Source: Candidatus Cloacimonadota bacterium
GTDB lineage: Bacteria; Cloacimonadota; Cloacimonadia; JGIOTU-2
Direction: 5' to 3'
Assembly: GCA_023129415.1 (NCBI GenBank)
Contig: JAGMCF010000283.1
Location: 1 to 39,977, forward strand
Length of the DNA stretch: 39,977 bases
A model generated the notes under the pieces. That model did not search any database. It had not been told where the DNA came from and saw only the letters and a program-made list of their open reading frames with translations. A program made the translations under genes and the position numbers. Positions 2,522 to 38,270 of this stretch are shown one piece after another; the stretch's first letter is position 1, and each line of letters starts with the position of its first letter.

Positions 2522-2716
2522 ATGAAAGAGATATATGAATTGAACATTTATCGGCTTGCTGAGGAACTTTCCGATATGATATGGTATGCTTTTGACCCGC
2601 CTTCCATAGTATTACGGCGGACAGGTGAATGGTCAGAAAAAGCTAAAAGAACTATTGGTTACCAGATAATTAAATCTTTTGATAGTATTGCTGCAAATCT
2701 TGCCTGCCCAGTGTAA
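2522..2716 (+). pseudogene. N-terminal half of four-helix-bundle (23S IVS-type) protein, interrupted
   Basis: Residues 1-61 match the first half of the TIGR02436/S23 four-helix-bundle family, ending at the signature SIAANLA. The next four codons (CPV-stop) belong to the inserted GIY-YIG element: the stop TAA lies inside its left inverted repeat. Normally SIAAN(I/L)A continues into EGYGR, and exactly that continuation appears after the insert at 3002. Family proteins are about 110-130 residues; rejoined, this would be 126. The truncated peptide is probably non-functional. Confidence 0.8.
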
Positions 2717-3001
2717 TATGAAATGCTATATTTATGTTCTTAATAGCAAGAGAAACAATAATAACTATGTTGGATTTACTGAAAACTTAAATGAAAGGTT
2801 GAATCAACATAGAGAGGGCAAGGTAACATCAACTAAGTATAGGAGACCATTAGAATTGGTTTATTATGAGGTTAGTTTTGATAAGGAAGATGCTTTACAT
2901 AGAGAAAGATACTTAAAAACAACATACGGAAGGAGATACATAAAGAACCGCCTTAAGAACCAAATACAAGGAATAGAAATATGAGTTATTACACTGGGCA
3001 A
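2705..3001 (+). mobile_element. 297-bp element: GIY-YIG nuclease gene between perfect 14-bp terminal inverted repeats
   Basis: TGCCCAGTGTAATA at 2705-2718 is exactly reverse-complementary to TATTACACTGGGCA at 2987-3000. The only content is a GIY-YIG ORF (2718-2984) whose ATG and stop both fall at the inner edges of the repeats. Removing 2705-3001 (297 bp, 99 codons) joins GCC to GAG and restores the SIAANLA-EGYGR reading frame of the host four-helix-bundle gene. No target duplication is visible. The interruption, the inverted repeats and the clean frame restoration are seen directly; transposition is inference. Confidence 0.75.
2718..2984 (+). CDS. GIY-YIG nuclease domain protein (UPF0213-like)
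   Basis: The 88-residue protein is a minimal single-domain GIY-YIG endonuclease. It has the first motif as YIYVLNS (residues 4-10), the second as NYVGFT, then the conserved Arg in LNERLNQH and the helix with the catalytic Glu region (ALHRERYLKTTYGRRYIKNRL). The ATG at 2718 is chosen because family members start at M-x-Y-x-Y-V; an upstream in-frame ATG at 2679 would add residues encoded by the host gene. The stop TGA overlaps the ATG of the downstream gene fragment (ATGA). Such proteins cut DNA; the substrate here is unknown. It is the only gene inside the inverted repeats, so it is the likely mobility enzyme. Confidence 0.85.
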   Translation: MKCYIYVLNSKRNNNNYVGFTENLNERLNQHREGKVTSTKYRRPLELVYYEVSFDKEDALHRERYLKTTYGRRYIKNRLKNQIQGIEI

Positions 3002-3199
3002 GAGGGATATGGGCGTTTTACCCCAGCAGATAGAAAGTTGTTTTATAGATATTCAAGAGGTTCATTTGAAGAGACAAAAGCCTGGCTTAGAAAAGCGATT
3101 AGACGAAAACTGATTCCAGTAACTAAGGTTCCAAGATATTCAGAAATTATAAATGAATTAGGACCTAAATTAAATGCATTTATAAAAAGTACACGATGA
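2981..3199 (+). pseudogene. C-terminal half of the interrupted four-helix-bundle protein
   Basis: From residue 8 the sequence (EGYGRFTPADRKLFYRYSRG, then SFEETKAWLRKAIRRKLIP) is the standard second half of the S23/IVS-type four-helix bundle. The first seven residues come from the right inverted repeat of the GIY-YIG element. Its ATG overlaps the GIY-YIG stop as ATGA, so the fragment could be translated by coupling, giving a split protein. I treat it as a gene remnant, since half a four-helix bundle is unlikely to fold alone. Confidence 0.78.
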
Positions 3200-11762: not shown

Positions 11763-12308
11763 ATGGGACTTCGTGGAAGAAGTAAATTCTCTGAGGAAAG
11801 ACATTTTTTTGTTACCACTACTGTGGTTAACTATGCAAAAGTTTTTATAAATGATAAATATTGTGAAATTCTTATAGATAATATCAAACATTATCAGGAT
11901 AAATATCATTTTATAATACTTTGTTATGTAATAATGCCTTCACACTTTCACTGGATAATTGAGACAGATGCAAAGTTTGGCACCTTATCTGATATAATGA
12001 GAGACATAAAAAAATATAGTGCTTGGGATGTAATGGATGAATTAGAGAAAGACGGAAGAACCAACTTAACGAGAATCTTTAGAGATGCAGCAAAAGGGAT
12101 TTCAGGACAAAAAAGAAAATTTTGGATGCAAAGATTTGATGATGAAGTAATAAGAAATAGAGAAATGTTTTTGACAAAATTGAGATATATCCACAATAAT
12201 CCTGTTAAAGCTGGTTTGGTTGAAAATCCTGAAGATTATAAATATTCCAGTGCTAGAAATTATATGTTTGGTGATCATTCAGTAATATTTGTTAAGACTG
12301 AGTGGTAG
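11763..12308 (+). CDS. REP-associated tyrosine transposase (RAYT, Y1 HUH family)
   Basis: The 181-residue single-domain Y1 transposase has the HUH metal motif as MPSHFHWIIE (near residue 60) and the catalytic tyrosine in KLRYIHNNPVKAGLV (near 140). Both match the RAYT/TnpA-REP family. These enzymes cut single-stranded REP hairpins and are thought to have spread them. REP palindromes flank it on both sides (at least three clear copies upstream and four downstream), the classic arrangement. The gene has landed between hypF and hypC. All key residues are present, so it may be active. Confidence 0.93.
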   Translation: MGLRGRSKFSEERHFFVTTTVVNYAKVFINDKYCEILIDNIKHYQDKYHFIILCYVIMPSHFHWIIETDAKFGTLSDIMRDIKKYSAWDVMDELEKDGRTNLTRIFRDAAKGISGQKRKFWMQRFDDEVIRNREMFLTKLRYIHNNPVKAGLVENPEDYKYSSARNYMFGDHSVIFVKTEW

Positions 12309-29271: not shown

Positions 29272-29873
29272 AGCGAAGAGCGTAGAGCGTAGAGAGTAAA
29301 ATATATATAGAAAACAGGAGATAAGCTTCACGGAAAAATGGTTGATAAAAAAATAAAACTCCCAGATGTAACTTGCTTCGTTAGTAATTCACGAGAATCG
29401 AAATTTGTGCAAAATTATACTGAACTTAAAGTTTATCAATTGGCATTTAAGTCAGCCATGAGAATTTATGAACTCTCAAGGAAATGGCCAACTGAAGAAA
29501 AATACTCGCTTACCGACCAAATTCGGCGTTCCTCCCGTTCAGTATGCGGAAATATAGCAGAAGCATGGCGTAAACGTCGCTACCCTGCCCATTTTGTGAG
29601 TAAAGTGAGCGACGCAGATACTGAAGCTGCTGAGACTGAAGTCTGGCTTAACTTTGCTTTGCATTGTAGATATCTTGGGGAAAAAGACCATATGGAGTTA
29701 GCTGATAACTATGACCACATTTGCCGAATGCTAACGAAAATGATGGCTAACCCCACGAGTTGGTGTATGCGAGTTAAATCGTAGGTGCATTTTCGTAAAG
29801 CGGAAAACATGAAACATATGAGTATTTCACCAATACGCTCTACGCTCTCCGCTCTCCGCTTCACGCTCTACGA
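29271..29873. mobile_element. Hairpin-bounded four-helix-bundle element
   Basis: The left arm (about 29272-29300) is built of tandem AGAGCGT units; the right arm (29834-29872) is the inverted counterpart, matching 24 of 27 bases over the best stretch. An inner pair directly hugs the ORF: GCTTCACGGAAAAATG (29325-29340) and CATTTTCGTAAAGC (29788-29801). The design is the same as the element at 2457-3271 but the arm sequence is unrelated. It sits between the two trehalose genes. Confidence 0.62.
29338..29784 (+). CDS. Four-helix-bundle protein (23S IVS-type, TIGR02436)
   Basis: The 148-residue protein matches the family from about residue 27: ELKVYQLAFKSAMRIYELSR, YSLTDQIRRSSRSVCGNIAEA, RYPAHFVSKVSDADTEAAET, EVWLNFALHCRYL. 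The N-terminal 25 residues are extra. The family is found in intervening sequences of 23S rRNA genes and near diversity-generating retroelements (as Avd); its biochemical role is not settled. This copy is intact, unlike the one at 2522-3199. It is enclosed by long inverted arms. Confidence 0.88.
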   Translation: MVDKKIKLPDVTCFVSNSRESKFVQNYTELKVYQLAFKSAMRIYELSRKWPTEEKYSLTDQIRRSSRSVCGNIAEAWRKRRYPAHFVSKVSDADTEAAETEVWLNFALHCRYLGEKDHMELADNYDHICRMLTKMMANPTSWCMRVKS

Positions 29874-36091: not shown

Positions 36092-36655
36092 TTATTTAAT
36101 CTTTGATCCTTCATCAACATTTTTCTTATTAAATTTTTCTTTTAGTTCTTGAAATTTTTCTCTTATTGAGTTAGCAACAGTTCTTGTCGTAATTGTGGCT
36201 CCTGTTATAGATACAATATCTCCGCCATCTTTATCTGCTAAAATTGTTTCTGGATTCGTTTTTTTGAATTTTTCTGTAAATTCTTGCTCTGTGCAATTAG
36301 CACCCAATCCGGGAGTTTCTTGTTGATCAACAATTTTAATTCCAGTTATCATAAGTAAAGTATCTATTCCAACCATAATTTTGATTGTACTGCTATATCC
36401 ATATTTCGAGCATTTAAAAACATATCCAACAAGCTTATTATTATCGAAACCTCTGTAATATAATATGTTATTATTCTCATAAACAAGTTCAAAATTATCA
36501 GCTAAGGACAAAACTTCTTTTCTTGCATTTTCTTCTTCTATTCTGTTGTTTTCTGCAATAATAGGCTCAGTTTTGTTATAGATTAAAGCTAAAACACTGC
36601 CTGCAATTATGCATATAACTAATAGGACTATTGTTGGTTTGAGTATATTTTTCAT
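36092..36655 (-). CDS. rnfG: RnfG, FMN-carrying subunit of the Rnf complex
   Basis: The 187-residue protein has an N-terminal membrane helix and the FMN-binding domain, with GLGANCTEQEFTEKF and the flavinylation motif SITGATITTRTV in which a Thr binds FMN covalently. The start at 36655 (MKNILKPTIVLL) is preferred. A longer frame upstream to 36769 is made of palindromic repeats, including AGCCGAGTCTCTCGGCT. Confidence 0.93.
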   Translation of the reverse strand: MKNILKPTIVLLVICIIAGSVLALIYNKTEPIIAENNRIEEENARKEVLSLADNFELVYENNNILYYRGFDNNKLVGYVFKCSKYGYSSTIKIMVGIDTLLMITGIKIVDQQETPGLGANCTEQEFTEKFKKTNPETILADKDGGDIVSITGATITTRTVANSIREKFQELKEKFNKKNVDEGSKIK

Positions 36656-37064
36656 ATGTAAATCTCTTTTAATATTATATGGAGTAGCCGAGTCTCTCGG
36701 CTGAATTCGGCAAGAGATCCATTCTCCGTAGCAAGACTGCGAAGGATGAACTTGCCGACTCCAAGTCAAATATAATTTTCATACTCCTTTGTGTCAACTC
36801 GTTGACATGAATGTTTCATCTGAAAATCCCTTTCACTTTATTTTGATTTGGGATGAACCCAAACCTACCCCCTCTACGGTTGGGTAGAAACAGGTTTACC
36901 CTGTTAGATATTCAGTTAAAATAAATATTACTATCTTAACAAGGTAAATATTATCTAACGGGGTTTATCCTGTTTCTATTCATATTCCATCAGTACAATA
37001 AATATAATATTTTCATCTTTCTTTGTGTTGGCTGGCTGTCCCCGTGCAGACGAGGATATTTGTT
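36656..37064. repeat. Repeat-filled gap between rnfD and rnfG
   Basis: Contains the TCT-loop palindrome at 36686-36702, a module copy on the minus strand (36773-36830: ATGAAACATTCATG ... ACAAAGGAGTATGAAAAT), an imperfect inverted repeat around 36888-36979 (GAAACAGG at each end, TTAGATA inside), and another module copy (about 37009-37070) whose ATGAAACA supplies the rnfD stop. There is no gene. Confidence 0.75.
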
Positions 37065-38153
37065 TCATTTTTGATTATCCTCCCTAATTTTCCTGAAACC
37101 GAAGGGTTTCTGAGGTGTTAATCTATCAATCAAAGGAACTGCAATATTCATAATCAAAATAGAATATGAAACTCCTTCTGGATAGCCACCCCAGAGTCTT
37201 ATCACTACAGTAATAATTCCACATCCAATGCCAAAAATTAACCTGCCTTTTTTCGTTACTGGTGATGTAACCATATCAGTAGCCATAAAGAATGCACCCA
37301 AGATAAGCCCTCCAGAAAATATATGGAATAGAAACGGACCTGAGAATAAACCATCAATACCACCTAAAAACCAGCTTAAAATTGCAACAGTCCCAATGTA
37401 GCTCAATGGAATTCTCCACTCGATATAATGTTTATACACAAGAAAGGCAGCTCCGATAATGAGTGCAGCAGCAGAAACCTCTCCAATACATCCACCGATA
37501 TTGCCCCAGAAAAGATTTTTAATATAATCCAGAGATGATAAACTATGAAAAACTGTTCGAGCAGAATCACCAGCAATTCCTTCAACAATATCTCCTCTTA
37601 TCTGCTGAGCTAAATTCAAAGGAGTTGCAGATGTTATTAAGTTCTGAAGATATGGATTCCCACCAGAAATAATACTTATCTTTAAACCAGAAATTGTACT
37701 TACACCAAGTTTTGCCATTTTGGTCATCCAGCCTGTTGTCATTTGGATGGGCCAGGAAGCCATTAAAAATGCTCTTCCAAGCAGAGCTGGATTTACAGGA
37801 TTATATCCTAAACCACCAAAAATTTGCTTACCAATTATGATTGCAAAGGCTGAACCAATTATTGGAAACCAAAAGGGAGATTCTGGAGGTAGATTAAATG
37901 ATAAGAGCAGACCGGTAATAACTGCGCTACCATCTGATACTGTAATTGGTTTCTTCATAAATAACTGCATCAAGGCTTCTATAACAACAGCAGTTATAAT
38001 ACCTAATACGGTTAAAAAGATCGATCGCCACCCAAAGAAGACATATGCAGCTATCAAAGCAGGCATTAAAGCAATAACAACTGACCACATTACTTTTTTT
38101 ACATTCACATTTTCATGTAGATGCGGTGAAGATGAAATTTTTAATAGATTCAC
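37065..38153 (-). CDS. rnfD: RnfD, membrane FMN subunit of the Rnf complex
   Basis: About 362 residues with about nine membrane helices, NPVNPALLGRAFLMASWP, the covalent-FMN motif TSATPLNLA (Thr), and FFMATDMVTSPVT. The GTG at 38153 is chosen as start because GGAGG lies eight bases upstream; a TTG at 38168 would overlap this ribosome site. RnfD and RnfG each carry a covalently bound FMN. The stop falls within a repeat module (AAATGAAACA). Confidence 0.95.
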   Translation of the reverse strand: MNLLKISSSPHLHENVNVKKVMWSVVIALMPALIAAYVFFGWRSIFLTVLGIITAVVIEALMQLFMKKPITVSDGSAVITGLLLSFNLPPESPFWFPIIGSAFAIIIGKQIFGGLGYNPVNPALLGRAFLMASWPIQMTTGWMTKMAKLGVSTISGLKISIISGGNPYLQNLITSATPLNLAQQIRGDIVEGIAGDSARTVFHSLSSLDYIKNLFWGNIGGCIGEVSAAALIIGAAFLVYKHYIEWRIPLSYIGTVAILSWFLGGIDGLFSGPFLFHIFSGGLILGAFFMATDMVTSPVTKKGRLIFGIGCGIITVVIRLWGGYPEGVSYSILIMNIAVPLIDRLTPQKPFGFRKIREDNQK

Positions 38154-38270
38154 CTTTTTAACCTCCAATCTATAAAATCCTAAATACGAATATCTAAATA
38201 CTAAACAAATTCAAATATCAAATATCAAATAAATTTTAAATGACAAAGATTTTTGTTTATTAAAAGAATT
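38154..38270. repeat. Single arm of an A/T-rich repeat
   Basis: TAAATAC/CAAATATCA-type short units are strung together at 38176-38230 (AATCCTAAATACGAATATC, then CAAATATCAAATATCAAAT). They resemble one arm of the MITE-like element after phoU, but no partner arm is seen. Confidence 0.5.

Follow-up and report, generated by a model that had tools for sequence, protein, structure and literature searches.

T4 segA-G are stand-alone GIY-YIG genes that spread selfishly and prefer conserved sites, and one of them, segB, is located between tRNA genes (PMC2988022). Insertion sequences and MITEs comprise one-gene units bounded by terminal inverted repeats (TIRs), with dispersed insertions and gene-less derivatives that keep the same ends. 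In REP/REPIN-RAYT systems, abundant short hairpins accompany a rarer gene-bearing partner with similar ends. Small GIY-YIG proteins also form the UPF0213 group, and GIY-YIG insertions of CPR bacteria lie in rRNA genes, with no inverted repeats reported. To our knowledge, no bacterial transposon class uses a GIY-YIG nuclease, none is as compact as about 0.3 kb including its protein, and UPF0213 proteins have no TIR mobile-element context.

We compared these systems with an element at positions 2705-3000 of the window (the whole 39,977-nucleotide stretch of Candidatus Cloacimonadota DNA that was analysed) and with its relatives elsewhere. As in homing systems, the element carries a GIY-YIG nuclease with intact catalytic residues. 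However, unlike T4 segA-G, it is bounded by TIRs and found inside genes, has gene-less copies, and encodes only about 88 aa without a separate DNA-binding domain; instead of spreading through flanking homology without ends of its own, it occupies sites without common homology in unrelated genes. As in insertion sequences, the TIRs move with the element, but its only ORF is GIY-YIG and not a DDE, HUH/Y1, tyrosine or serine transposase, no clear target-site duplication is seen, and its length is only about 0.3 kb. Nor does it have the Y1 transposase beside matching palindromes that marks REP/RAYT systems, and the palindromes of the RAYT gene in the window (11763-12308) differ from its ends. Since the element lacks one defining feature of homing and one of the known insertion sequences, it was filed with neither. 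In its behaviour it resembles an insertion sequence with site preference, and it appears to be an undescribed type of bacterial mobile element of very small size; no description of it was found in the open-access PMC papers searched.

The left TIR, TGCCCAGTGTAATA, lies at 2705-2718 on the plus strand, and its exact complement at 2987-3000 on the minus strand. No further exact copy of these perfect 14-bp inverted repeats exists elsewhere in the window; for CCCNGTGTAATA, two occurrences there compare with 0.01 expected by chance. The nuclease gene (2718-2984, plus strand, 88 aa, PF01541 E=1e-16) is the sole ORF of the element, and the approximately 30 bp outside it are, by size alone, short for the ribozyme of a self-splicing group I or II intron. 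The initial annotation had described a 297-bp unit with exact terminal repeats that touch the start and stop of the nuclease gene. The repeats are indeed exact, but the unit measures 296 bp from repeat to repeat, and base 3001, which had been taken as the element end, falls outside the repeat. Similarly, the ATG starts on the final base of the left repeat, whereas the TGA stops 2 bp short of the right one. The left repeat was correctly said to give the stop of the host gene, because TAA at 2714-2716 ends its N-terminal half. The right repeat is not the restart: the restart ATG (2981) is upstream of it and overlaps the stop codon of the nuclease (ATGA), and the reading frame then continues across the repeat. 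Translational coupling (TAATATG, ATGA) may join the synthesis of the N half, the nuclease and the C half.

The flanking halves belong to a four-helix-bundle/23S_rRNA_IVP gene (PF05635, TIGR02436). The N-terminal half (2522-2716, plus strand), when joined with the C half, aligns to the intact paralogues L044 and L048; the C-terminal half (2981-3199, plus strand), restarting at the ATGA inside the element, matched PF05635 (E=8.8e-9) and TIGR02436 (E=6.8e-10). The joined empty site reads AATATAGC followed by AGAAGG. A conserved gene had been proposed to be split by the element and restored in frame by its removal. The splitting was confirmed, but the gene is not a unique conserved one, being a member of an accessory family with about 27 genes in this genome; restoration of the frame holds for the window copy but not as a general rule. 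A second copy in the same genome (contig C256, 47691-47992) has the same ends and a protein 78% identical to that of the window copy; its host is a different four-helix-bundle gene, interrupted at the same position. The third element of this genome, at C134:21227, is more divergent. An intact four-helix-bundle paralogue (PF05635 E=1e-31, weak bAvd match) is also present at 29338-29784 of the window. Another gene of this family in the same genome, L056 (G000:C134:25929-26320), is broken by a short insertion or frameshift without a GIY-YIG gene, and adjoins a GGCAGTT tandem repeat.

In the protein alignment A1, Y4, Y6, Y17, G19, R27 and E63 are invariant and the catalytic residues are conserved. 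The dN/dS values of the nuclease (0.06-0.19) show purifying selection. An AlphaFold2 model (pLDDT 86, pTM 0.74) consists of one GIY-YIG domain and a C-terminal helix, without a separate DNA-binding domain. The structures nearest to the model were UPF0213 (1zg2) and then Slx1, and UPF0213 proteins (1zg2, 1ywl) are the closest solved structures by sequence and fold. Specificity of the nuclease for a structure or for the ends is plausible. A phage search for relatives gave no match, a plasmid search gave distant matches only, and viral contigs contained one distant relative.

Pairs of occupied loci were compared. The window copy and L016 share 97% identity over the element and 86% and 79% over the host halves, with no homology outside the host gene. 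The dS was 0.16 for the nuclease and 0.64 and 0.89 for the host halves, the latter being rough as the C half of L016 is frameshifted. For L002 and L017, the dS was 0.20 for the nuclease and 0.91 for the host N half, and the host C half was saturated. Thus, with a dS of 0.16-0.20 for the element against 0.64 or more for the host gene in the window lineage, the element moved independently of the host gene. Empty sites were also found. L051, in the window genome, corresponds to the occupied locus L017 without the element; they differ by a single net insertion of 303 bp, with flank identities of 55/55 (left) and 223/230 (right), and no target duplication was observed at these junctions. L044 is an empty paralogue of L002 with 86% identity. 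In Algoriphagus, five occupied four-helix-bundle genes were compared with empty ones in about 25 genomes, and at the occupied sites 4 bp of target (AATA) are replaced. Accordingly, the two observations named beforehand as support were both obtained: several independent insertions that share their ends, and clean empty sites. No near-identical copies were found at different sites within one genome, the best same-genome pair being about 82% identical.

The commonest hosts are four-helix-bundle genes (19 loci). Pfam searches with the joined flanks identified the other host genes as YhcG_C, ORF6N, AbiEii, HEPN, phage integrase (tyrosine recombinase), HepT-like, PDDEXK_3 and Fib_succ_major. By motif alone, an AlbA/RecG-like gene, a RAYT-like transposase, for which Pfam gave no convincing match, and another GIY-YIG gene were added. 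In Patescibacteria, many copies are at start codons with TATG or ATGA at both junctions, which is compatible with blunt insertion or with a 4-bp TATG/ATGA duplication. The replaced stretch at the junctions varies between clades (0-5 bp), so a single chemistry of insertion is not established. The ends are clade-specific and the target family partly follows the protein tree. This tree contains at least 16 target changes; its forks are poorly supported because there are few columns.

Close relatives of the nuclease were found between inverted repeats in Cloacimonadota, WOR-3/Stahlbacteria, Bacteroidota and Patescibacteria. With alignment A1, 44/125 Cloacimonadota genomes contained relatives at E<=1e-15. 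At E<=1e-22, relatives were detected in 88/287 genomes of the phylum to which the Moranbacteria genome belongs and in 20/295 of the order that includes the Bacteroidales genome. Most of the genomes compared are fragmented MAGs. A flanking inverted repeat score of at least 22 was obtained for 64 of the 109 relatives with an HMM score of at least 100, against 0.8% of shuffles. The gene-bearing elements are about 270-340 bp, their common end type is YACCC-N-GT-NNN-ATA, and the left and right ends agree within an element while varying between elements: 28/42 had identical 10-nt cores, against a mean of 3.5 and a maximum of 11 in the permutation control. The same ends, which were to be sought elsewhere, recur in the same genome, and across phyla the element type recurs in host genes of about a dozen unrelated families. 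GIY-YIG homologues lacking flanking inverted repeats, which had been named as contrary evidence, do occur, but solely in more distant clades, many of them beside tRNA genes.

Some genomes have an abundance of ORF-less hairpin elements, about 30-110 bp long, with the same ends. The end motif was counted 136 times in the window genome (3 in the backwards control), 262 times in genome G200 (2) and 80 times in genome G204 (2), and was at background in most other genomes of the phylum. Strict short TIR pairs numbered 21 in the window genome and 20 in G200, and none was found in the backwards control. At 20 MITE-like loci, TT was at the expected flank position in 16/20 and AA in 16/20, against a background of 0.13-0.14 each. 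The window contains one MITE-like hairpin at 36898-36964 (no strand assigned), with the ends ACCCTGTTAGATA and TATCTAACGGGGT (2 end sites against 0.19 expected). It is intergenic, between minus-strand ORFs at 36092-36769 and 37065-38168, and is likely a non-autonomous relative separate from the copy at 2705-3000. The gene-less elements have TIRs in common with a gene-bearing element of their own genome, as MITEs do with an autonomous partner, and they thereby connect the ends with mobility. In the family of genomes to which the window belongs, no association was seen between end abundance and presence of the TIR-type GIY-YIG gene (4/8 v 4/9, p=1); the phylum-wide association (p=0.007) may be due to shared ancestry. 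Since abundance within the family is independent of the gene, the link between hairpins and gene rests on the shared ends. Short elements also form arrays, as at L340 (G000:C237:14883-15096), where 52-54-bp hairpin units with ACCCYGTGAAATA ends are in tandem. The RAYT-like Y1 transposase of the window (PF01797) is flanked by palindromes GTCA-GG-TGG-CC-TGAC, unrelated to the TIR family, and was rejected as the source of the short hairpins on this ground.

These data were weighed against other explanations. A homing endonuclease gene would cut the empty allele and be copied in by double-strand-break repair via flanking homology, with the repeats incidental or regulatory. The many copies at conserved motifs of the four-helix-bundle family and the partial agreement of target family with the protein tree fit this reading, and homing genes favour conserved sites (PMC2988022). 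However, homing neither creates matched ends nor carries them to non-homologous sites, whereas the same TIR type occurs at start codons as well as in about a dozen gene families unrelated to each other, and is shared by elements with no ORF; moreover, a review of the T4 seg genes makes no mention of inverted repeats (PMC2988022). We therefore consider homing unlikely. It is also rather improbable, to a somewhat greater degree, that the TIRs are a MITE family moved in trans by some other transposase, with the GIY-YIG gene as a mere passenger. This would agree with gene-less elements far outnumbering gene-bearing ones and with their abundance being independent of the gene within the family. Against it, one GIY-YIG clade is inside TIRs with clade-specific ends in every phylum sampled, a pattern that is partly by design, and the gene is under purifying selection. 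Because the GIY-YIG protein was the starting point of the survey of gene-bearing elements, this survey cannot alone show that these ends enclose no other gene. Larger TIR elements with another transposase were rejected, since no credible one was found inside TIR pairs in the 20 regions examined.

An element acting in RNA, whose repeats pair in the mRNA so that the insert is spliced out or bypassed by ribosomes and the host protein is still made, would account for the restored frame of the window copy and for the low dN/dS of the host N halves (0.10 and 0.18). However, the length of the elements is not, as a rule, divisible by three. The mismatches between the ends are not biased towards G-U (22 wobble-compatible v 23 opposite); thus, the repeats act as DNA ends and not as an RNA stem. 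In addition, host halves are decayed, with a frameshift in L016 and with stops or frameshifts in the N half of L026 and L029. On the absent G-U bias and the host-gene decay, splicing or bypass was rejected as very improbable. Chance repeats, or one ancestral insertion inherited by descent, are more improbable still, and nothing in favour of them was found: the end scores exceed those of shuffles, the end cores are matched, dS differs between element and host, and the independent insertions in unrelated genes refute an arrangement kept at one locus by descent.

The reading of the locus as a minimal mobile element, in which TIRs enclose only a single-domain GIY-YIG nuclease gene, is supported by the independent insertions, the empty sites and the lower divergence of the element than of the host gene, and is probably correct. 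Comparison of the loci shows that the TIRs and the gene together are the moving unit, inserted in unrelated genes at short preferred sites. Insertion appears not to duplicate the target in any clear way, and some of these genomes also contain multiplied gene-less elements that have the same ends. The lack of near-identical copies within one genome, the differing junctions and the missing association within the family count against this reading. From these patterns, we infer that the nuclease may be the mobility enzyme. The GIY-YIG protein would recognise the TIR ends or a similar target and cut the DNA there, and host repair would seal the element in to complete insertion. As far as we know, GIY-YIG enzymes hydrolyse DNA and are not known to join strands, so insertion would have to rely on other enzymes.

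If the nuclease is the mobility enzyme, the element would represent a new chemistry of DNA mobility in a minimal system simple enough to reconstitute, and would be the smallest autonomous DNA element known to us (about 0.3 kb). It would also account for the abundant hairpin repeats of Cloacimonadota and their relatives, and give a role to many small proteins annotated as 'GIY-YIG nuclease family proteins'. The GIY-YIG inserts in CPR rRNA genes, judged a poor fit to homing, may have the same explanation. The chances are about even that these loci represent a new class of autonomous bacterial transposable element, with a single-domain GIY-YIG protein of about 85 residues as the mobility enzyme on TIRs across several phyla, with MITE satellites of its own, and as part of a broader group of small GIY-YIG genes whose colonised sites include tRNA genes and REP-like repeats.

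Some more distant small GIY-YIG genes directly adjoin tRNA genes, most without TIRs (L079, L100, L102, L103, L204-L208, L238, L259-L268, L289, L298, L304 and L312). ARAGORN confirmed a tRNA at most of these loci, and they suggest a second targeting mode. Other small GIY-YIG genes (L069, L077, L087, L126) are between inverted REP-like repeats (GTCATTCCCGCG...GGAATC and GTCATCCTGA...AGGATC). In genomes of the Algoriphagus genus group, small GIY-YIG genes form tandem arrays with a regular spacing of about 345-400 bp (G035:C1:2305159-2306182, G021:C2:234378-235280, G068:C1:5553146-5554117 and L138).
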